From Haloglomus salinum (lineage in GTDB: Archaea; Halobacteriota; Halobacteria; Halobacteriales; Haloarculaceae): a stretch of 64,000 nucleotides of DNA. The position numbers and the translations under genes are program-made. Location of the stretch: assembly GCF_024298825.1 (NCBI RefSeq), contig NZ_CP101153.1:992001-1056000 (forward strand), written 5' to 3'. Shown here piece by piece: positions 5,670 to 15,648 of this stretch (positions within the stretch are counted from its first letter, which is position 1; the number at the start of each line of letters is the position of its first letter). The notes beneath the pieces are model-generated. The model ran no database searches. It had not been told where the DNA came from and saw only the letters and a list, made by a program, of their open reading frames with translations.

Positions 5670-7835
5670 ATGACAGACCGGCGTGGTGACGAGGCCGAGC
5701 ACAGCACGACACGACGCGGCATCCTGAAGGCGGCGGGCGCGGCGTCCGCAGGCGCCGCGGCCGCGACGCTGCTCAGCACGGGCGCGGTGGCGGAGCCCAC
5801 CGACCCGAACGAGGGAGGGAGCGTCCCCGCGGAGTTCCGGACCGACGACTACGACGCGTTCCCGCAGTCGGTCGGGAGTGGTGGGCCGACGCCGAGCGGG
5901 GCCATCGTCTGGACCCGCATGGACGAGGAGCTGGCCGCGTTCACGAACGGACAGCTCTACCTGCAGGTCACGGGGGACGAGACGGACGGCGACGCCGCCA
6001 ACGCGGACGCCGACTTCACGGACGCGCGGACGTTCACCGTTCCGACGGCCGGACGACGCGACGACGCGACGGCACTGTCGGCCGCGCAGGACCACACGGT
6101 CCGTGTCGACCTCGACGGCGAACTGGACCCGGACACGTACTACTTCTACCGCTTCGTCTACGTGACCGACGGCGACGCGCCGTCGACGGCGAGCCCGGTC
6201 GGGCGGCTCCACACGATGCCCGCCCCCGACGCGCCCGTCGACGACGTGCGGCTGGCGGTCAGCTCCTGCAACAACTACCTCCACGGCTACTACGGGGCGT
6301 TCGCGCACATCGCCGAGGAGGACGCCGACTACCACGTCTCGCTCGGGGACTTCCTCTACGAGTACGCGGGAGAGGCCCAGCAGCCCGGCCGCGACATCGA
6401 ACTGCCCAGCGGGAACAGCGTCACGCACACGCTGGCAGACTACCGCCACCTGCACCAGACGTACCGGAGCGACGACCACATGCAGGCCGCGATGGAGCGA
6501 CACACGCTCATCCACACGTGGGACGACCACGAGATAATCAACAACCGCTGGTGGGTCGGCGATGCCGAGGACGGCTACCCGGACACGCGGAGCCACCCGT
6601 TCGGGGGCGACCCCGAGCGGATGCGGCGACTGTACGCTCGTGGCATCAAGGCGATGCTGGAGTACATCCCGCTCCGGGTCGAGTACGAGGACCCCTACGA
6701 GGCCGGGACGCCGGTCGAGGACAGCAGCGCCCGGCAGTACTTCCGGCTCTACCGCTCGTTCAAGTTCGGCGACCTGGCGGAGCTGTTCATGACCGACGAG
6801 CGGCTCTACCGCTCGCCGCCGCCGAAGGACGACGACGACCCATCGGCGGCGACCGGTCGAGACACCGCGCCGCCGTCGCCCGAGCGCAACCAGAGCGACC
6901 TCGACCGGACGATGCTCGGGACCGAGCAGTACCGCTGGTTCCTCGACGGGGGCACCAATCCGGGGTCGATGCCCGACACCGACGGCGTCACCGGGACGGA
7001 CGCGACGTGGAAGCTCCACGGCAACGAGGTGCTGAGTGCGGCACTGAAGGTCGTCAACGTCGGCATCGACAGCCTCTACCTCAACTACGACGCCTGGGAC
7101 GGCTACGAGGCCGAGCGCAATCTTCTCATGGCCCGGCTCGCCCGCGACGAGGTGGACAACTACGTCACGCTCACGGGCGACATGCACACCTACGTCGCCG
7201 GCTACCTGAAACAGGACTACAAGGACCCCGAGCAGTCCGAGTACGTCGGCGGCCCGCGGGTCGGCGTCGAGTTCATGACGCCCGGTATCACCAGCAACAA
7301 CCTCGCCAGCGCGGGGGGCCTCCCCGCGGACGCGACCGAGGACGCCATCGACGCGGCCGTCCGGACGCAGAACCCCCACATCGAGTGGTTCAACTCCTCG
7401 CGCTGGGGGTACACGACGATCCACATCAGCGACCAGTCGCTCACCTACACGGCGTACGATGTCGACCGGTCGGTCGACTCGTCCGAGGCGCCGAAGCAGC
7501 TACTGCGGAGCTACCGGGTCCCCGAGGGCCGCTACGAGCTGCAGGAGTTCCGCTCGCCGCCGCTCGACGGGACCATCGGCGACCGGGTCGCGGCCTCGTT
7601 CGCAGACTCGACTACCGCGAGCGATGCCCCAGACGTGACGACCGGAGTGGGTCCGGTCGACGAGACTGTCAACGCCGTGACCGGCGACGAGGGCGGCGAC
7701 GGCAGTGGGAGCGGCGGCAATGCCGACGGCACGGATAGCCACCCGGACGACACCGGCAGCAGCACTACCGGCAGCGACGGCGACAGGAACGGTATCCCGG
7801 ACCCCATCGAGGACGTATTCGGGCGGGGACTCTGA
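5670..7835 (+). CDS. Tat-exported PhoD-like alkaline phosphatase/phosphodiesterase
   Basis: A 721-residue secreted metallophosphatase. A Tat signal (TTRRGILKAAG then an alanine-rich stretch) occupies residues 10-45; I chose the ATG at 5670 because it places this signal at the N-terminus. An N-terminal PhoD_N-like beta domain is followed by the metal-binding blocks AVSSCNN, YHVSLGDFLYEY, IHTWDDHEIINNRWW and LTGDMHTYVAG. The last ~70 residues are a Gly/Ser/Asp linker and a short tail ending DPIEDVFGRGL. PhoD enzymes release phosphate from organic phosphodiesters outside the cell. Two bases separate it from the next phosphatase gene, so they form an operon. Confidence 0.93.
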   Translation: MTDRRGDEAEHSTTRRGILKAAGAASAGAAAATLLSTGAVAEPTDPNEGGSVPAEFRTDDYDAFPQSVGSGGPTPSGAIVWTRMDEELAAFTNGQLYLQVTGDETDGDAANADADFTDARTFTVPTAGRRDDATALSAAQDHTVRVDLDGELDPDTYYFYRFVYVTDGDAPSTASPVGRLHTMPAPDAPVDDVRLAVSSCNNYLHGYYGAFAHIAEEDADYHVSLGDFLYEYAGEAQQPGRDIELPSGNSVTHTLADYRHLHQTYRSDDHMQAAMERHTLIHTWDDHEIINNRWWVGDAEDGYPDTRSHPFGGDPERMRRLYARGIKAMLEYIPLRVEYEDPYEAGTPVEDSSARQYFRLYRSFKFGDLAELFMTDERLYRSPPPKDDDDPSAATGRDTAPPSPERNQSDLDRTMLGTEQYRWFLDGGTNPGSMPDTDGVTGTDATWKLHGNEVLSAALKVVNVGIDSLYLNYDAWDGYEAERNLLMARLARDEVDNYVTLTGDMHTYVAGYLKQDYKDPEQSEYVGGPRVGVEFMTPGITSNNLASAGGLPADATEDAIDAAVRTQNPHIEWFNSSRWGYTTIHISDQSLTYTAYDVDRSVDSSEAPKQLLRSYRVPEGRYELQEFRSPPLDGTIGDRVAASFADSTTASDAPDVTTGVGPVDETVNAVTGDEGGDGSGSGGNADGTDSHPDDTGSSTTGSDGDRNGIPDPIEDVFGRGL

Positions 7836-7837
7836 CA

Positions 7838-9895
7838 ATGACGCGCGACACCACAGCCAGCACGGACGGGGAAACGTCGGAGGGGGCACGAGACGACGAC
7901 CAGGGGCAACTCTCCCGGCGAGGCGTCCTGCGGGGCAGCGCGGCACTGGGTGCGGCGCCCATCATCGCCAGCGCTGCGGGGGCGGCCGAGGCCGGCATCG
8001 GCGACGGGCCGCAGGGCATCCACGTCGCCTGCGGGCAGGAGCCGACAAGCATGATGACCGTCGCGTTCACCGGCGCGCCCGCCGCGACCGGGGCGACCGT
8101 GCGCTACGGCGAGCCGGGCGACCTCGACACGACCACGAGCGCGACCGGCCGGCCCGTCCCCGGCAGGGACGCGATGGCGTACACAGCCACGCTGACGGGG
8201 CTCGCGCCCGACACGGCGTACGCCTACGAGGTCGAACTGAACGGGACGTCCTCGGAACGACGGCGCTTCCGGACCGCGCCCAGCTACGACGGGGACACGG
8301 GGACGGACGGGTTCACCATCACGCAGGTCGGCGACCACGGCGCCGCCGACCCCGACAACCCCGGCCAGCGGCCCGGCGACGCCCATCCGCGGATGGTGAT
8401 GGCCATCGCCGAGGCGCTCGACCCCGATATGCAGCTGCTGTCGGGTGACATCTCCTACTCCAACGGGAAGCCCTCGACGTGGGAGCTGTACTTCGACGTC
8501 CACGAGGACTACTACGGCGGGACCGCGGACCGCCCCGCGACCCCGTTCATGACGGTCCCGGGCAACCACGAGGCCGAGGTCGGGACCGGGATGGTCCAGT
8601 ACGACCGGCGGCTCAACGACGCGATGCCCATCTACGACCCCGACATCGACGTCGTCTCGAAGCAGCGGTGGTGGGACATCGTCTACGAGAACGCCTTCAT
8701 CATGGGGCTGAACACGACGGCGGACGCCTGCGGCGACCTCGCGCGGGCCGAGGAGTTCGTCCCGCTGTACGACCCCCGCTGCGAGACCGAGCAGGGACTC
8801 ACCTACGGGGCGGTCCAGGAGCGGTACATGCGGTCGGCGCTCCAGCGTGCCGAGGACGACGAGGACGTGAAATGGAAGATCGTCACCTTCCACGGTCCGC
8901 TCTGGACCACCTCGCCGGACCACGAGCCGCGGCGGGACCTGCAGGAACGCTGGGGCCCCATCTTCGACGAGTACGACGTGGACCTCGTGCTCCACGGGGA
9001 CAACCACGTCTACGAGCGCACGAAGCCCATCCGGCACACCGACGACCTGCTGACCTACTCGGAGCGCCGAGCCCCGGCGCGGACGCCCGCCGGGGAGAGC
9101 GCCCCGCCGCCGGCAGAGGCCGCCGAGGGCCTCGAGTTGCCGTTCGACGAGGAGGACCCACACGGGACGACCTTCATCGTCAACGGGACCGGCGGCGTGA
9201 GCCACTACCCGCTCGGCGTGAAGGAGAAGTACATGGACACGACGACGGGCGAGTTCTTCGGCATCACCCGGCTGGACATCGACGAGGGATCCATCGACGT
9301 GCAGTACGTCGCGGCGCCGCCGCTCGCGGCCCAGGACCTGGACGAATCCACGCCCCTGACCGACGACTTCGACCCGACCGGGGACGCCGTCCGGGTCGTC
9401 GACGAGTTCTCCATCGTCAAGGACAGCCGCGGCCGCCCGACGCAGGTCGAGGGGACGCCCAGCGGGCCGACGACGCCACAACGGCTCGCGGTGGCCGGCC
9501 GCCGGACCGACGACGGCAGCCTCTTCACCGCCGGCAGCACGAACCAGATGACCGTCGAGGTCACCGAGGCCAACGATGCGGTCGAACTGCGCGACCGGAT
9601 TCCGGCGGCGTGGACCGTGGTCGGTGGCGAGGTCGAGCGTGTCGAACCCGGCCCCGAGGGGACCGGGACGAAGTACGTCTACCTCGACCCGTCAGCGCCC
9701 GACGACGAGGGGGGCCGGCTCCGCGCAGACTACTTCGTGGAGGCCCCCAGCGACGCCGACGGCACGGGCAAGTACACCTTCGGGCCCGTCCAGGCACGCG
9801 GAACCGAGCAGTACCGGGACGCGGGCTGGACCGCGGTCGCGGGCACGACCAGCACCGAGCGCGTGGTGGGCATCGGCACGCAGGGACTGCTCTGA
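7838..9895 (+). CDS. Tat-exported purple-acid-phosphatase-like metallophosphoesterase
   Basis: A 685-residue protein with a Tat signal (LSRRGVLRGSAALGA, residues about 24-50). A fibronectin-III-like purple-acid-phosphatase N domain follows (residues about 60-140, including LAPDTAYAYEVEL). The calcineurin-type core has ITQVGDHG, QLLSGDISY, TVPGNHEAE, VTFHGPLW and LVLHGDNHVYER, which supply the binuclear metal ligands. The C-terminal ~170 residues form an extra beta-rich domain. It likely hydrolyses extracellular phosphomonoesters and works with the PhoD-like enzyme 2 bp upstream to scavenge phosphate. Confidence 0.92.
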   Translation: MTRDTTASTDGETSEGARDDDQGQLSRRGVLRGSAALGAAPIIASAAGAAEAGIGDGPQGIHVACGQEPTSMMTVAFTGAPAATGATVRYGEPGDLDTTTSATGRPVPGRDAMAYTATLTGLAPDTAYAYEVELNGTSSERRRFRTAPSYDGDTGTDGFTITQVGDHGAADPDNPGQRPGDAHPRMVMAIAEALDPDMQLLSGDISYSNGKPSTWELYFDVHEDYYGGTADRPATPFMTVPGNHEAEVGTGMVQYDRRLNDAMPIYDPDIDVVSKQRWWDIVYENAFIMGLNTTADACGDLARAEEFVPLYDPRCETEQGLTYGAVQERYMRSALQRAEDDEDVKWKIVTFHGPLWTTSPDHEPRRDLQERWGPIFDEYDVDLVLHGDNHVYERTKPIRHTDDLLTYSERRAPARTPAGESAPPPAEAAEGLELPFDEEDPHGTTFIVNGTGGVSHYPLGVKEKYMDTTTGEFFGITRLDIDEGSIDVQYVAAPPLAAQDLDESTPLTDDFDPTGDAVRVVDEFSIVKDSRGRPTQVEGTPSGPTTPQRLAVAGRRTDDGSLFTAGSTNQMTVEVTEANDAVELRDRIPAAWTVVGGEVERVEPGPEGTGTKYVYLDPSAPDDEGGRLRADYFVEAPSDADGTGKYTFGPVQARGTEQYRDAGWTAVAGTTSTERVVGIGTQGLL

Positions 9896-9991
9896 GGAGG
9901 TCTGCCCGCGCTCCGGGGCCGGAGAGCCGGTAGGCGACCTCCCCGCCCACAGGTATTTCAGCGGCGACGGGGAACCGTACGGATACCTGCG

Positions 9992-11866
9992 ATGGACTCG
10001 CCGAGCGACCCGAGACGGGTACTCCACGTCGACGACGACCAGGCGTTCCTCGAACTGACGGCGGAGTTCCTCGAACGCGAGAGCGACGCCCTCGTCGTGA
10101 CGACGGCGACGAGCGTCGACGAGGCGACGGCCATCCTCGACCGGGAGTCGTTCGACTGTATCGTGAGCGACTACGATATGCCCGGCACCAGCGGGCTGAC
10201 GTTCCTCGAACGGGTTCGCGAGCGCCACCCCGACCTGCCGTTCGTCCTGTTCACGGGCAAGGGGAGCGAGGAGGTCGCCAGCGAGGCAATCACCGCGGGC
10301 GTCACCGACTACCTGCAGAAGGGGGGCGGCACCGAACGGTTCGCGCTGCTGGCCAACCGCATCCAGAAGGCCGTCGAGCGCTACCGCTCCGAGCGGGCAC
10401 TGGAGGAGCGCAACCGCCGGCTCGAGACGCTCATCAGCAACCTTCCCGGCATCGTCTACCGCTGCGAGAACGCGCCGGCCTGGCCGATGAGCTACGTGGC
10501 CGGGGAGTGCGAACAGCTGGTCGGCTACCCCGCCGCCGCCATCGAGGACGGCGACATCTCGTGGGGTGAGGACGTCCTCCACCCCGAGGACCAGGAGATG
10601 GCATGGCAGACGGTACAGGACGCCGTCGAGAGCGGCGAACCGTTCGAACTCACCTACCGCATCGTCGACGCCGACGGCGAGGTGCGGTGGATGTGGGAGC
10701 GCGGCCGAGCCGTCGACGTGGCGGACGCGCCGTGGGCCGACGCTCTCAACCGCGAGGGAGCCGACGCCGAGCGCCAGACCGTCGACACGGTGGCGCTGGA
10801 GGGGTTCATCACGGACATCACCGAGCCCAAGGAGCGCGAACAGGAACTCCGCGAGCAGCGCGCGTTCACCGAGACCATCATGGACGCGTTCGACGACATC
10901 GTCTACGTCTTCGACCACGGGGGGAACTTCATCGAGTGGAACGACCGGGCGACGGTCGTCTCGGGCTACGCGGACGAGGAACTGGCCGAGATGGGACCGC
11001 TCGACTTCATCGCGGACGAGGACGTCGAGCGCGTCGCGGACTCCATCCAGGAGATCTACGAGACCGGTCGCTCCCACGTCGAGGCCGGCCTCGTCATGGC
11101 CGACGGTTCGAGGGTCCCCTACGAGTTCCGGGGCCGGGCGCTCACCGACGATGACGGCGAGCCCTGGGGCTTCTGTGGTATCGCCCGCGATATCTCGGAG
11201 CGCCGGCGCAACGAGCGCGAACTGGAGTCGCGCAACGAGCGCCTCGACGAGTTCGCCTCCATCGTCAGCCACGACCTCCGCAACCCGCTGAACGTGGCCG
11301 AGGGACACCTCGAACTGGTCCAGGAGGAGTGTGACTCCGACCACCTCGAGCCCGTCGAACGGGCCCACGACCGGATGGACGCACTCATCGAGGAGCTCCT
11401 GACACTCGGCCGCGAGGGCGAGTCCGTCGAGGCCCCCACTCCGGTCCCGCTGACGGATGTCGTATCGGCGAGCTGGAAGCACGTCGACACGGGGGACGCG
11501 ACGCTCACCGTCGAGACCGACCGGCACGTCCGGGCCGATGCCCCCCGGCTCCAGCGCCTCCTCGAGAACCTCGTTCACAACGCCGTGACACACGGCACGG
11601 ACGACGACACGGCGGCCGATATCACCGTCACCGTCGGCTGCCTGCCGGACGATGCGGGCTTCTACGTGGCCGACAACGGCTGCGGTATCCCGTCCGACGA
11701 GCGTCAAGCCGTCCTGGACCCGGGCTACTCCACGAGCGAGGGCGGGACCGGGTTCGGCCTCACCATCGTCCGGCGCATCGCCGACGCCCACGGCTGGGAC
11801 CTGTCGCTCGCCGAGAGCGAGGCTGGCGGCGTCCGGGTTGAAGTCCGGAACGTGGGGTTCGACTGA
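9992..11866 (+). CDS. Hybrid sensor histidine kinase: receiver-PAS-PAS-HisKA-HATPase
   Basis: A 624-residue cytoplasmic kinase with no membrane segments. Receiver domain at residues about 8-125 with acidic pocket HVDDD, phospho-acceptor Asp60 (CIVSDYDMP) and LFTGKGSEE. Two PAS domains, about 140-275 and 285-405. H-box FASIVSHDLRNPL, N-box ENLVHNAVTHG, G-boxes DNGCGIP and GTGFGLTIVRR. The N-terminal receiver may let another kinase tune this one. No output regulator adjoins it; it is followed by tRNA-Ile. It closely resembles the kinases at 25526 (same order) and 16755 (kinase core). Confidence 0.93.
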   Translation: MDSPSDPRRVLHVDDDQAFLELTAEFLERESDALVVTTATSVDEATAILDRESFDCIVSDYDMPGTSGLTFLERVRERHPDLPFVLFTGKGSEEVASEAITAGVTDYLQKGGGTERFALLANRIQKAVERYRSERALEERNRRLETLISNLPGIVYRCENAPAWPMSYVAGECEQLVGYPAAAIEDGDISWGEDVLHPEDQEMAWQTVQDAVESGEPFELTYRIVDADGEVRWMWERGRAVDVADAPWADALNREGADAERQTVDTVALEGFITDITEPKEREQELREQRAFTETIMDAFDDIVYVFDHGGNFIEWNDRATVVSGYADEELAEMGPLDFIADEDVERVADSIQEIYETGRSHVEAGLVMADGSRVPYEFRGRALTDDDGEPWGFCGIARDISERRRNERELESRNERLDEFASIVSHDLRNPLNVAEGHLELVQEECDSDHLEPVERAHDRMDALIEELLTLGREGESVEAPTPVPLTDVVSASWKHVDTGDATLTVETDRHVRADAPRLQRLLENLVHNAVTHGTDDDTAADITVTVGCLPDDAGFYVADNGCGIPSDERQAVLDPGYSTSEGGTGFGLTIVRRIADAHGWDLSLAESEAGGVRVEVRNVGFD

Positions 11867-11898
11867 CCGGAAAGGGGACCCCGCGCTCGGAAAGGTAA

Positions 11899-11912
11899 TG
11901 CTTAAACAATCG
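11899..11912 (+). promoter_or_regulatory. Probable promoter of tRNA-Ile
   Basis: ATGCTTAAACAATC lies about 30-40 bp upstream of the tRNA-Ile gene in GC-rich DNA, which is the usual position of an archaeal TATA box for tRNA genes. Confidence 0.5.
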
Positions 11913-11940
11913 ACGACAGTACCACCGAGTGCGCCTACCT

Positions 11941-12015
11941 GGGCCAATAGCTCAGTCAGGTACGAGCGCTCGGCTGATAACCGGGAGGTCACCGGTTCAA
12001 ATCCGGTTTGGCCCA
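11941..12015 (+). tRNA. tRNA-Ile (anticodon GAU)
   Basis: A 75-nt cloverleaf: acceptor GGGCCAA/TTGGCCC, D-arm GCTC/GAGC, anticodon stem CTCGG/CCGGG around loop CTGATAA (anticodon GAT), T-arm ACCGG-TTCAAAT-CCGGT, discriminator A, no encoded CCA, no intron. Its 3' end is the left attachment site of the integrated element that follows. Confidence 0.96.
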
Positions 12016-12085
12016 TATCCGGCGCCGGCGGTCTTTGGCCGACGGCGCTCGGGGGCGTCAGACCTCCCCAGCCAATTCATCTCGG
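11988..12085. repeat. Left attachment region (attL)
   Basis: It comprises the tRNA-Ile 3' end (11988-12017), a GC-rich hairpin spacer (12018-12060, probably a tRNA terminator-like structure) and a 25-bp block at 12061-12085 identical to 14494-14518. Confidence 0.8.
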
Positions 12086-12218
12086 TGTAACAATCCTCAT
12101 TAGAAACTTGTCTGTCCTGCCGAGTTGAACCAGCAGACTCCCGCACCTCAACGCAGTCGGCTACTTTGGATTAGCCCACGGCAGAAGTTCTCAATTGATA
12201 CAATAGGACTGCATCTGG

Positions 12219-12821
12219 TCATCTACGAAATAGACCGTAGACGTATAGACCGAGTAGGATAACCGCAATTGTCGCAATAGGAGGGAGCTGACTACCAGTC
12301 ATCTTGTTCTGGTGTAAAAGCTCTGAATCCACCAATCCCGACGTAGCCATCATCTGAACAGATATACCGATTGCCACAAAAACGAGAGAGACAGTGGAAC
12401 TTGCCACGGTGATGGCCCTGAATCGGAGGCTTGCTGGGATACCATCCTCATCTGTTACCTGAGCATAGTCTGCGGCCAGCATCCGTCGTCCTCGGATGCT
12501 TGCAGTCAATCCAATCAAAGTGGCTAATCCGACAATAAAGAGGCCATACGCTCCAAACGGAAGATGATATAGATAATCATAGAACAATAAAATACTGGTC
12601 AGCAAAACGAACGGCCTTGTTTTCGGTTCGTTGTCGAATGCCTTCCACAGAGCAATCTCGGCTAATGCTTCATCCTCGGTCTTAGTTTCAATACCGTCAT
12701 CAACCTCAATCACCATCTCAAGGATTGGCAGTAGATACGCGACGAACCACCTTCCAGCCCTCGGCATATTGTGTTTGTCGTAGATCTCCTCCCGAGAGGG
12801 GGAATCCAGTCCTGAAGACAT
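12219..12821 (-). CDS. Element-borne membrane protein, unknown function
   Basis: A 200-residue protein. An N-terminal soluble part has an amphipathic segment near residues 25-40. Four hydrophobic helices follow at about residues 70-88, 92-110, 137-160 and 180-198. GC content is well below that of the chromosomal genes, matching the rest of the element. I recognise no family. It is encoded on the same strand as the zinc-finger and integrase genes. A small membrane protein on a mini-element could serve in exclusion, envelope alteration or maintenance, but nothing in the sequence decides this. Confidence 0.7.
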   Translation of the reverse strand: MSSGLDSPSREEIYDKHNMPRAGRWFVAYLLPILEMVIEVDDGIETKTEDEALAEIALWKAFDNEPKTRPFVLLTSILLFYDYLYHLPFGAYGLFIVGLATLIGLTASIRGRRMLAADYAQVTDEDGIPASLRFRAITVASSTVSLVFVAIGISVQMMATSGLVDSELLHQNKMTGSQLPPIATIAVILLGLYVYGLFRR

Positions 12822-12900
12822 AATTCTGCAATCCGGATTCTGATTATTAGGGCTTACTCTGAATCCAAAACGAAGGATTCGAAAATTGGAAAATATGGGC

Positions 12901-13125
12901 TTATATCACATCCCAACCAGAACCGCTGCACTGCGAACAGAGATTAACGCCGTGAGCTCCGCTACCATTACAGGGGCGGCACCTCACAAGCTGCTCCCCC
13001 TGTCGGAGTTGAAACTTGTGACGTCCGCTACCGCCACACGCAGGGCACTTACCAGTTCCTTCTACCCCCGTACCACCACAGTATCCGCAATTAACGACCT
13101 CCGTATTTGGCTGTCTCCGGGCCAT
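12901..13125 (-). CDS. 74-aa protein made of four CXXCXGXG (DnaJ-type) zinc motifs
   Basis: It has four Cys motifs in order: CGYCGGTG (C13/C16), CPACGGSG (C27/C30), CRPCNGSG (C49/C52) and CSQCSGSG (C63/C66). This is the repeat of the DnaJ central zinc-binding domain, which binds two zinc ions, but there is no J domain or substrate-binding domain. Stand-alone proteins of this type are known but not functionally defined; a chaperone adaptor, redox protein or nucleic-acid-binding role is possible. It lies inside the integrated element between the membrane protein and the integrase. Confidence 0.8.
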   Translation of the reverse strand: MARRQPNTEVVNCGYCGGTGVEGTGKCPACGGSGRHKFQLRQGEQLVRCRPCNGSGAHGVNLCSQCSGSGWDVI

Positions 13126-13278
13126 TATATTCCATACTATCCCAAAATCAGAAAAGTGTATTCCCGAATGTAGGGTTCAAGAGGACTTGAACTCATAACA
13201 CTCGAAATGGAGGTATACGAGGTGGTGATTCGCCCCGCCAAAAAATGCCAATATATTTATAATTTTCAAAGTTGTTAC

Positions 13279-14295
13279 TTAGATTCCCTTCAGATAGTCC
13301 CTCCGCTGATCTGCCTTCTCCTCCTCACTCCGCCGGTCGTAGTGCTTCTCCAGCACGTCAAGACTGACGTTCATCCGGTCGCTGACCACCTTGTCTGGAA
13401 CGTCCTGTGCCAGATGATGCGTAATCGACCCGCGCCGAATCGCGTGCGGGCTGACGCTCGAGGGGCAGGTACTCGCCTTGTTCGTCTCCAGGGCCTCACA
13501 GGAGTCCAGGTCGCGGTCGTGGGGACACTCCCCCGTGTATTTGCAAGGCCGCGTGACTCGGTAGATGCTGTCCCGCAGTGAACTCTTAGCCACGCGTCCG
13601 TGCCGACTGGTGAACAGCGGGCGGCGTCCGTGGTCGTCCTTCGCCTCAACGCGGTTGTACTCCAGATAGGCATCCAGGGTGTCACAGACATCCGGAGACA
13701 GCGTGACAATCCGCTCGCCGGCTTCCTTGTTCTTGAGTCGGGTTCCCTTCTCGGGCCGGTGCCGCACCTCAACGTGTTGATTCTCGCGGTCATAGTCCTT
13801 GATGTCGAGGCTGTGAGCCGCACCGATTCGCAGACCAGTGTGCCAGAGGAGCTGGACGAGTGCGTGCGTACGGGTAGCGAACTCGAACTGCTGGAGATAG
13901 TTGATGAGTTTCTCGGCCGCCTCCCCGTCGAGCATCGCCGTTCGTCGGTCCTCGTTGGTGGCGAGCGATGGCAGCAGCACCTTCTCGAAAGTTCCCGGCT
14001 CCACCGCGTCGATCTTCTCGCACCACTTCAGGAAGACGCGAAGCGTGGACAACTGCGTGACCATCGTGACGTTGTTGAGGTCGCCGTCCTCCCGCCGCCA
14101 CATCTTGTATCGCTGGAGGTCACGCCCGCTCAACGTGTTCAAGTTCTCCACGTTTTCCACGTTCTCGCACCAGCGCACGAAGTGTTTCAGGCGGTAGTGA
14201 TGTGCCTGAATGGTCGATTCTGATACCTCTTGCTTCCGCTGTTGGAGATACATCTGCTTCGCCTCGGCCGGGGCGATGGGGTCGAGTCCTGACAT
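13279..14295 (-). CDS. Tyrosine recombinase/integrase of the tRNA-Ile element
   Basis: A 338-residue XerC/D-type site-specific recombinase. A SAM-like core-binding domain spans about residues 8-100 and the catalytic domain about 115-335. Catalytic residues that can be placed: Arg156 (WHTGLRIGA), His284 and Arg287 (HAIRRGS), Tyr319 (LEKHYDRR). The usual third histidine position reads MNVS, so that residue is replaced, as in many haloarchaeal integrases. A Cys-rich insert (CKYTGECPHDRDLDSC, about 251-266, plus C277) may bind zinc. It would catalyse integration and excision at the tRNA-Ile 3' end. It starts 147 bp inside the right repeat and appears full length. Confidence 0.93.
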   Translation of the reverse strand: MSGLDPIAPAEAKQMYLQQRKQEVSESTIQAHHYRLKHFVRWCENVENVENLNTLSGRDLQRYKMWRREDGDLNNVTMVTQLSTLRVFLKWCEKIDAVEPGTFEKVLLPSLATNEDRRTAMLDGEAAEKLINYLQQFEFATRTHALVQLLWHTGLRIGAAHSLDIKDYDRENQHVEVRHRPEKGTRLKNKEAGERIVTLSPDVCDTLDAYLEYNRVEAKDDHGRRPLFTSRHGRVAKSSLRDSIYRVTRPCKYTGECPHDRDLDSCEALETNKASTCPSSVSPHAIRRGSITHHLAQDVPDKVVSDRMNVSLDVLEKHYDRRSEEEKADQRRDYLKGI

Positions 14296-14397
14296 TTCGG
14301 TAATCTTCCAGAAGCCGTATACGAAGGAACCAGCCTCCCGGACTACACACCCGGAGCCTCAGACATCCGAGAGCGCACTTCTCGGACCGGGACTTTT

Positions 14398-14442
14398 CTC
14401 GCCGCGAGCGCGTTTTGGCGGTAGACGCGCTCTTGCGGCGAG
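14398..14442. repeat. Strong inverted repeat beside the right attachment repeat
   Basis: CTCGCCGCGAGCGCG (14398-14412) pairs with CGCGCTCTTGCGGCGAG (14426-14442) around a 13-nt loop, with a 2-nt bulge. It abuts the right att repeat directly. It may be an integrase arm-site, an integrase-promoter operator or a structured end of the element. Confidence 0.65.
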
Positions 14443-14518
14443 TCACCGGTGATAATCCGGTTTGGCCCATACCGGGCCTCCGCCCGAGGCGCTGACCTCC
14501 CCAGCCAATTCATCTCGG
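14442..14518. repeat. Right attachment region (attR)
   Basis: A copy of the tRNA-Ile 3' end (14442-14471), then a 22-bp hairpin spacer, then the 25-bp block 14494-14518 identical to 12061-12085. No complete tRNA is formed here. Confidence 0.8.
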
Positions 14519-14563
14519 ACGTTGCTTCGGAGAGCGACAGCACTGGTCTCCCGACACGCCGTC

Positions 14564-14974
14564 TCAATCCCAGAGCGTCGTGACGTTCCGCACGTCCCCG
14601 AGGTCGGGGTCACGAGTGACGATGGCGTCCGTGCCGCGTGCCGTATGGTTCGCGACGAGCATCGCGTCGTGAAGCGAGTACTCCTCGACGAGCTGGATGA
14701 GCTCCGACATCGAGGCAGCGTCGAGACTCGCGACATTCACGGGGCCGTTGACGTGGAGGTTCCGCCAGCTCTCGGCCGGCGTCAGGTCGAGATCGACACC
14801 GCTGACGTCGGTCCCGCCGCGCAATCGGTAGAACACCTCGCCGAAGACGACATCCGGGGCCTCGACCACGGCCGTCCCCCGTTCGGCCCGGGAGAACACG
14901 TTCTCGGCAGCCGCCGGGAGTACGTCGACGAGGTACCCGAGCAGCGCGTTCGTATCGGCGGTGTACCGCTTCAT
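14564..14974 (-). CDS. PIN-domain toxin (VapC-like)
   Basis: A 136-residue PIN-domain ribonuclease. The N-terminal MKRYTADTNALLGYL carries the first metal-binding Asp (D7). A mid-protein GEVFYRL acidic residue and C-terminal SLHDAMLVAN and DAIVTRDPDL supply the remaining acidic site. VapC toxins cleave tRNA or rRNA and are held inactive by the cognate antitoxin. I took the ATG at 14974 because it overlaps the antitoxin stop (ATGA) and gives the canonical PIN start. It lies immediately outside the right end of the tRNA-Ile element. Confidence 0.87.
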   Translation of the reverse strand: MKRYTADTNALLGYLVDVLPAAAENVFSRAERGTAVVEAPDVVFGEVFYRLRGGTDVSGVDLDLTPAESWRNLHVNGPVNVASLDAASMSELIQLVEEYSLHDAMLVANHTARGTDAIVTRDPDLGDVRNVTTLWD

Positions 14975-15261
14975 TCGCCTGTGTTCCACGCGGCAGACCC
15001 GCGGTCACGCCGGTTCTGCTCGGCGAGGTCTTCGAACACCGCCCGCCGCGTCTCCTCGTCCTCGTTGCTCAGGAGGGCGCCACGACCGCTCTCGATGTGC
15101 TTCCTGATGACGAGTCCATCCTCGGTGCGGTACCACTCGACCTCGTCACCGGCCTCGACCCCGAGTTCGTCGCGGAACTCCTTCGGGATGGTCGTCTGGC
15201 CCTTCTCCGAGACACGGGTGGTCCGTGGGTCGCTGCTCTCGTCGTCGGTGCCGGTCCCCAT
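14971..15261 (-). CDS. AbrB/SpoVT-type antitoxin (VapB-like)
   Basis: A 96-residue protein with a swapped-hairpin AbrB DNA-binding domain at about residues 14-60 (VSEKGQTTIPKEFRDELGV then GDEVEWYRTEDGLVIRK) and a C-terminal toxin-neutralising tail of charged residues (ETRRAVFEDLAEQNRRDRG). It lies upstream of and overlaps the PIN toxin by 4 bases, the standard antitoxin-toxin order. The ATG at 15261 was chosen because direct repeats that look like its operator sit immediately upstream. It probably autoregulates the operon. Confidence 0.87.
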   Translation of the reverse strand: MGTGTDDESSDPRTTRVSEKGQTTIPKEFRDELGVEAGDEVEWYRTEDGLVIRKHIESGRGALLSNEDEETRRAVFEDLAEQNRRDRGSAAWNTGE

Positions 15262-15266
15262 ACGAG

Positions 15267-15286
15267 GTAAAACCCAGTGTAAAACC
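15267..15286 (-). promoter_or_regulatory. Putative VapB operator: direct repeat GGTTTTAC x2
   Basis: On the minus strand the sequence GGTTTTACACTGGGTTTTAC lies 5 bp before the antitoxin ATG: two 8-bp copies with 12-bp spacing. Its position at the start site and the AbrB-type product suggest an autoregulatory site overlapping the promoter. Confidence 0.5.
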
Positions 15287-15648
15287 TTGTACCTTGGGGC
15301 AGTCTGTTCCGGAGGTACTGGCGTGGCAGTTCCGCACGCTCGGCGACATCTCGACCGGCAGCATGGCAGGAGGACAGTCCGTGAGGAGTTGGTTTTCGCG
15401 ATTTCTATCGTGTACGGCGAATAATCCAAATATTTCTGGCATTCTACGAGAATGTAGCATTTCGAAGGGCAGAGCAGGATACATCAATCAGCCGGCCACC
15501 GACGGTGGGCGCCCGCTCGAACCGAGCCGCGGACAGATTGACGAACAACCACCAGCCACCACTTGCTCAATACATTCATACACCTTATACAGTCTAGAGT
15601 GCCTTTCTGCAAACCTTTATCCTGTGTTCGAGTGAAAAACAGGACAAG
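15287..15648. other. Gene-poor region between vapB and the zinc-ribbon/acyltransferase operon
   Basis: About 360 bp without a convincing gene, partly AT-rich (AATAATCCAAATATTTC near 15420). CACCTTATACAG (about 15585) and AACCTTTATCC (about 15612-15622) look like TATA elements; the latter sits about 30 bp before the ATG at 15649, as expected for a leaderless transcript. The lower GC compared with flanks suggests residual foreign DNA. Confidence 0.5.

Follow-up and report, generated by a model that had tools for sequence, protein, structure and literature searches.

The closest described systems are the betapleolipoviruses SNJ2, HRPV9 and HHPV4, which integrate at tRNA 3' ends with integrases homologous to the one reported here (44-46% identity over 98%). 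The SNJ2-type integrase family is delimited by an identity of 30% or more across 60% of the protein, many of its members lack the accessory Orf2 and Orf3 in the integrase operon, SNJ2 itself uses a short attachment site of 13-14 bp at tRNA-Met, and archaeal attB sites can reach outside the tRNA gene (PMC8371274). The attP of HRPV-9 lies within a bridging reading frame (PMC7911831). Archaeal cryptic integrated elements (CIEs) combine an integrase and tRNA direct repeats with few other genes; the accessible part of their description presents them from Thaumarchaeota, as a class without signature genes, and describes no tRNA-trailer unit, the smallest one given there being a thaumarchaeal element of 2.6 kb with four genes (PMC6563490).

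The window, which is the whole 64,000-nucleotide stretch of Haloglomus salinum DNA that was analyzed, contains a 2,454-bp element integrated in a tRNA-Ile gene, with the following features.

11940-12016, plus strand: tRNA-Ile (GAT), the intact target gene, whose 3' end is the attachment core (ARAGORN; Rfam RF00005, E=3.5e-14)
12000-12017, plus strand: attL crossover core, matching 14454-14471 at all 18 nt
12016-12085, plus strand: trailer unit (E) carried by the element, with a hairpin spacer of 43 nt (12018-12060) and block 12061-12085 (59.4 bits with trailer model R1; spacer unlike the genus-native one)
12061-12085, plus strand: 25-bp conserved block, element-borne copy, conserved 3' of tRNA-Ile in relatives
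12219-12821, minus strand: cargo, predicted multi-pass membrane protein of 200 aa
12901-13125, minus strand: cargo, 74-aa CxxCxGxG (DnaJ-like zinc) protein (PF00684, E=6e-6, under the curated cut-off)
13279-14295, minus strand: intact SNJ2-type tyrosine integrase of 338 aa with its start codon on the attR side (PF00589, E=1.8e-13; PF02899, E=1.1e-9)
14454-14471, plus strand: attR crossover core (tRNA 3' fragment), identical to 12000-12017
14470-14518, plus strand: host-native trailer unit (H), with a spacer of 22 nt (14472-14493) and block 14494-14518 (spacer identical in G002)

The first-pass annotation had described the tRNA 3' end as duplicated. The repeat is real (11988-12023 and 14442-14477, 86% over 36 nt) but not identical throughout, as the T-loops read TTCA and TGAT, respectively, and an exact match is limited to the 18 nt AATCCGGTTTGGCCCATA at 12000-12017 and 14454-14471. 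Since the copies diverge in the T-loop to one side of this 18-nt core and in the spacer to the other, strand exchange must fall within the core. The second repeat was found exactly as first reported, being 25 bp long (GACCTCCCCAGCCAATTCATCTCGG, 12061-12085 and 14494-14518) without a mismatch and separated from the tRNA end by spacers of 43 nt on the left and 22 nt on the right, each of which folds as a hairpin. The two repeat copies lie 2.45 kb apart, the chance expectation for 25-bp repeats in 3.5 kb is ~1e-8, and a search of the 4.19-Mb genome for the 25-mer, allowing up to three mismatches, gave no third copy. Read from the sequence, the "nested" repeats belong to a single unit, being its conserved ends; this unit consists of tRNA 3' end, hairpin and CTCCCCAGCC block, and its middle has diverged both in sequence and in length. 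The GC content is 0.54 within the element and 0.66-0.68 outside.

Three plausible genes lie inside, in agreement with the earlier count: the integrase, the CxxCxGxG protein and the membrane protein. The integrase has both the Phage_int_SAM and the Phage_integrase domain and belongs to the SNJ2-type family, with 44.5% identity to the SNJ2 integrase over 98% and 46.1% to that of HRPV9. Unlike the SNJ2-type viruses, the element lacks viral genes, SNJ2 accessory proteins are missing next to the integrase (no ORF homologous to Orf2 or Orf3 adjoins it), and the start codon of the integrase, not its end, faces attR. Its attachment site also differs from the short one of SNJ2 by being composite and located at tRNA-Ile. 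Compared with archaeal attachment sites extending outside the tRNA (PMC8371274), the extension here corresponds to the conserved tail of one particular tRNA, with a hairpin that diverges between copies. With an integrase, att direct repeats and no viral or conjugation hallmark genes, the element fits the description of a cryptic integrated element. A pleolipovirus provirus was rejected as an identity, as there are three genes only, no PHROG match to virion proteins and no virion/NTPase block, and so was an IS element or transposon, given the tyrosine integrase and the direct repeats at a tRNA. The 74-aa protein was also considered as an SNJ2 accessory protein and rejected, as it has no similarity to gp2 or gp3. 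No Pfam, NCBIfam, PHROG or PADLOC family was found for the 200-aa membrane protein, homologues of which are rare (3/145 Halobacteria, 23-36% identity), and a search for defence cargo gave no PADLOC match to the window genes. Adjoining attR, at window 14564-15429, there is a PIN-like gene (without a Pfam match) together with an AbrB/MazE antitoxin gene, a stretch that is mostly absent from the nearest relative.

The comparison set within the genus comprised three other species, G001 (nearest to the window), G002 and G003. G001 is without the element and collinear with the window, its flanks being 92% (left) and 95% (further right) identical: window 6642-12085 aligns with G001 L121 1-5455 at 92% and window 14487-14585 with L121 5424-5522. 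The left-flank match runs to the end of the block and the right-flank match starts in the same block, which occurs once in G001, and therefore the pre-insertion site had one tRNA end and one block. The element is thus integrated in tRNA-Ile, as first proposed, and the empty site answers the condition under which the first-pass annotation would have been refuted, namely both blocks at the empty site of a relative; with one block and not two in G001, the duplication is not older than the insertion. The right spacer (CCGGGCCTCCGCCCGAGGCGCT) is identical in G002 and near-identical in G003, and the left spacer differs. As the right spacer is thus genus-native and the left one is not, the right copy is the host's own and the left copy was brought in on the attP of the element. 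At the same tRNA-Ile, G002 contains a separate insert of 967 bp (L058 500-1525), with a tail at each end; this insert holds a DUF433/PIN-like pair that by eye resembles a toxin-antitoxin, and an apparent integrase C-terminal remnant (REKMEQRRRYLRD).

Throughout the family, a hairpin often lies behind tRNA-Ile, succeeded by CTCCCCAGCC(A) and ~12 more bases; in one genus ACTCCCGTAGGCG takes the place of CTCCCCAGCC. As the first-pass annotation proposed, the extra block is host-like and derives from the region behind tRNA-Ile. A covariance model of the tail (R1) was run on 242 Halobacteria, where the tail was found in 100 genomes from 26 genera, the remaining 142 giving no R1 match. At the loci that were read, the tail lies 3' of a complete tRNA-Ile (nearly all) or of a 3' fragment of tRNA-Ile, G169b being the one weak exception, and in the window genome clear R1 scores were obtained for the two att copies only. 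No Rfam family scored above its gathering score for the tail, the matches being to the tRNA itself and a chance antisense match to tRNA. tRNA-Ile without a tail is common among Halobacteria, and since many genomes are without the tail it is no universal requirement. Tail and tRNA-Ile 5' leader pair and co-vary in some genera, as in G122 (GCGCCTAC/GTAGGCGC) and G118 (GCGCTGAC/GTCAGCGC), where the element-borne tails match the host's leader perfectly. In a permutation test the leader-tail pairing gave p=0.003 within the genus of G122 and G118 and p=0.029 at the genus level. Possibly, the paired leader and tail form a processing stem. Pairing and co-variation of leader and tail were seen in genera g6, g11, g15 and g1; as a universal feature the pairing was rejected, being absent in several genera (g3, f4 genera).

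The integrases that are 68-77% identical to the window integrase make up a clade of 12, 11 of which are located at tRNA-Ile or a tRNA-Ile 3' copy. The measured elements are 1774, 1852, 1911, 1937, 2454 (window), 2616, 2802, 3004 and 3017 bp long, and that of G144 is 17.7 kb. Accordingly, 9/10 measured tRNA-Ile members fall within 1.8-3.0 kb and the small size of the window element is normal; together with CIEs of down to 2.6 kb in the accessible part of their description (PMC6563490), this overturns the earlier impression of an exceptionally small element. The tail unit is present at both ends in 8/12 clade elements (the window and 7 others). Measured to CTCCC, the spacer that the element carries has 45-48 nt in every case, the spacer identity between the two ends is 0.50-0.96, and the block identity is 18-22/22 in the seven pairs split by script, both blocks being present by reading in Halolamina. 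The integrases of Halolamina and G207 are 95.6% identical, yet their cargo is unrelated.

Second tails 3' of 14-nt tRNA-Ile ends also mark insertions in G283, G322, G165, G247, G311, G181 and G082. The G283 element is 3.75 kb and has an integrase that is 50% identical to the window's and ends beside attR; those of G322 and G165 are 15.2 kb and 16.8 kb. In all three, 14 nt of tRNA and the whole unit are repeated over ~80-100 bp. The circular virion genome of HRPV9 contains CCCGTGTTGGCCCA followed by hairpin and block directly after the integrase gene (R1 E=2.2e-10), that is, the same tRNA-Ile core, hairpin and block as in the window element, and thus a free element, too, shows the composite attP. 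HRPV9 alone matched the att pattern among free forms in IMG/VR, an R1 search of HHPV4 and part of the SNJ2 genome gave no match, and no circular form of the window element was seen. A composite attP was one of two origins offered in the first-pass annotation, the other being a one-off excision that took along extra DNA. Paired units flanking seven other clade elements and unrelated larger elements with other integrases, together with the unit in HRPV9, argue that the attP is composite by rule and not through one bad excision.

Taken together, we consider it probable that an element with an SNJ2-type integrase entered tRNA-Ile within the core and that its attP carries a diverged copy of the tRNA tail, a spare that would protect tRNA-Ile. 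Haloarchaeal tRNA-Ile naturally has a tail of hairpin and CTCCCCAGCC-type block, of which the attP, built as tRNA 3' end, hairpin and block, holds its own diverged copy. Crossover of the two inside the 18-nt core of tRNA-Ile(GAT) placed the element's tail behind the intact tRNA (12016-12085) and shifted the host's original tail to attR (14470-14518), and hence an attP with its own tail copy leaves an imported tail on the left and a native tail on the right. The tail would serve maturation or expression of the tRNA-Ile precursor, a function that is also suggested by its being carried as a rule, and the elements would carry a spare so that insertion spares the cell's tRNA-Ile. Most likely, then, the element supplies a replacement tail that would keep tRNA-Ile maturation intact. 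Such maintenance of the tRNA-Ile transcription unit is favoured because hosts that have a single copy still retain hairpin and block, because the tail occurs with different integrases and in different orientations, and because a member of this integrase clade at another tRNA does without it. The reading is weakened by the many haloarchaea without a tail, by the weak covariation of the hairpin across the alignment (4-5 consensus pairs, one of them compensatory) and by the R1 scores, in which tRNA-proximal tails show no systematic advantage over distal ones.

The presence of the unit at both ends of eight clade members, in the free attP of HRPV9 and with a 50% identical integrase could also mean that the recognition site of the integrase includes hairpin and block, as arm-type or accessory sites required on attP for recombination, and some archaeal integrases do require nucleotides beyond the shared core (PMC8371274). 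We find this unlikely. The clade member in G243 (69% identity) sits at tRNA-Ala(CGC) with a repeat of only 32 bp of the tRNA end, which argues that the tail belongs to tRNA-Ile and not to the integrase, and the members in G144 and G351, at tRNA-Ile in hosts without a tail, are themselves without one. Moreover, SNJ2 manages with ~14 bp at tRNA-Met (PMC8371274), and the integrase orientation relative to attP is opposite in the two unit-carrying groups. The 32-bp repeats in G243 (L158 1274-12164) are 10.8 kb apart and represent a target switch within the integrase clade.

A 25-bp block that is identical next to unrelated hairpins, as in the window, would also arise if exchange took place at two points, in the tRNA core and in the block, with repeated insertion and excision swapping the hairpin and leaving core and block identical. 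Consistent with this, the units in G322, G165 and G283 are near-identical, in G322 and G165 essentially so over ~80 bp with the identity ending at the block end, and in G283 slightly further. Furthermore, the spacer in G001 is 46 nt and element-like, as if the hairpin had been left by an excised element (the short native spacer is common to the right end of the window, G002 and G003), and G001 may be an excision scar that retains an element-like spacer. However, purifying selection on the block yields the same pattern and no single case shows a block crossover caught in the act, which leaves two exchange points a doubtful explanation. We are similarly tentative about the wider view that haloarchaeal tRNA-Ile has a conserved, previously undescribed structured tail which elements and host exchange at the tRNA core and the block; if true, the host's tRNA tail would itself be a mobile, swappable part.

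Less credible still is that one ancestral attP picked up downstream host DNA by imprecise excision and has carried it passively since. A single capture could account for the host-like character of the extra sequence, which holds in every case, but the unit stays intact on elements of several genera and in a free virus, and both copies of the block carry the variant of the host genus (GTAGGCG in G122, GTCAGCG in G118), which passive carriage does not predict. That two independent insertions, or an older tandem duplication downstream of the tRNA, made the second repeat has hardly any probability left even at a hotspot where G002 has its own insert with a repeated unit, as it is refuted by the single unit and continuous flanks of G001, and both repeats stand in the same order at each end, as a single crossover predicts.

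On sequence grounds, the anatomy of the element is well explained, as a moderately novel form of tRNA-targeted archaeal integration; no description of the tRNA-Ile tail as an att extension was found in the open-licence literature, which is weak evidence of novelty. What looked like an odd double repeat becomes a rule, namely that elements at tRNA-Ile carry the tRNA end and the downstream tail, as seen in a free virus and for two or more groups of integrases, and this would illustrate how elements can use an essential-looking tRNA gene harmlessly. In practice, attachment sites at tRNA-Ile should be sought as a unit of ~80-90 bp with a variable middle, a search that helps to delimit very small elements missed by standard finders.

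Two further arrangements were observed at tRNA-Ile. At L096, L036, L106 and L109 there is another type of insertion, in which the tail is replaced by hairpins followed by CGAGCGGATTTGAAC-like sequence, and this is probably a different element family. In G258, contig C1, tails are located at 261481, 297951 and 334421 (L162-L164), exactly 36,470 bp apart, which suggests two tandem copies of one large (36.47-kb) element.
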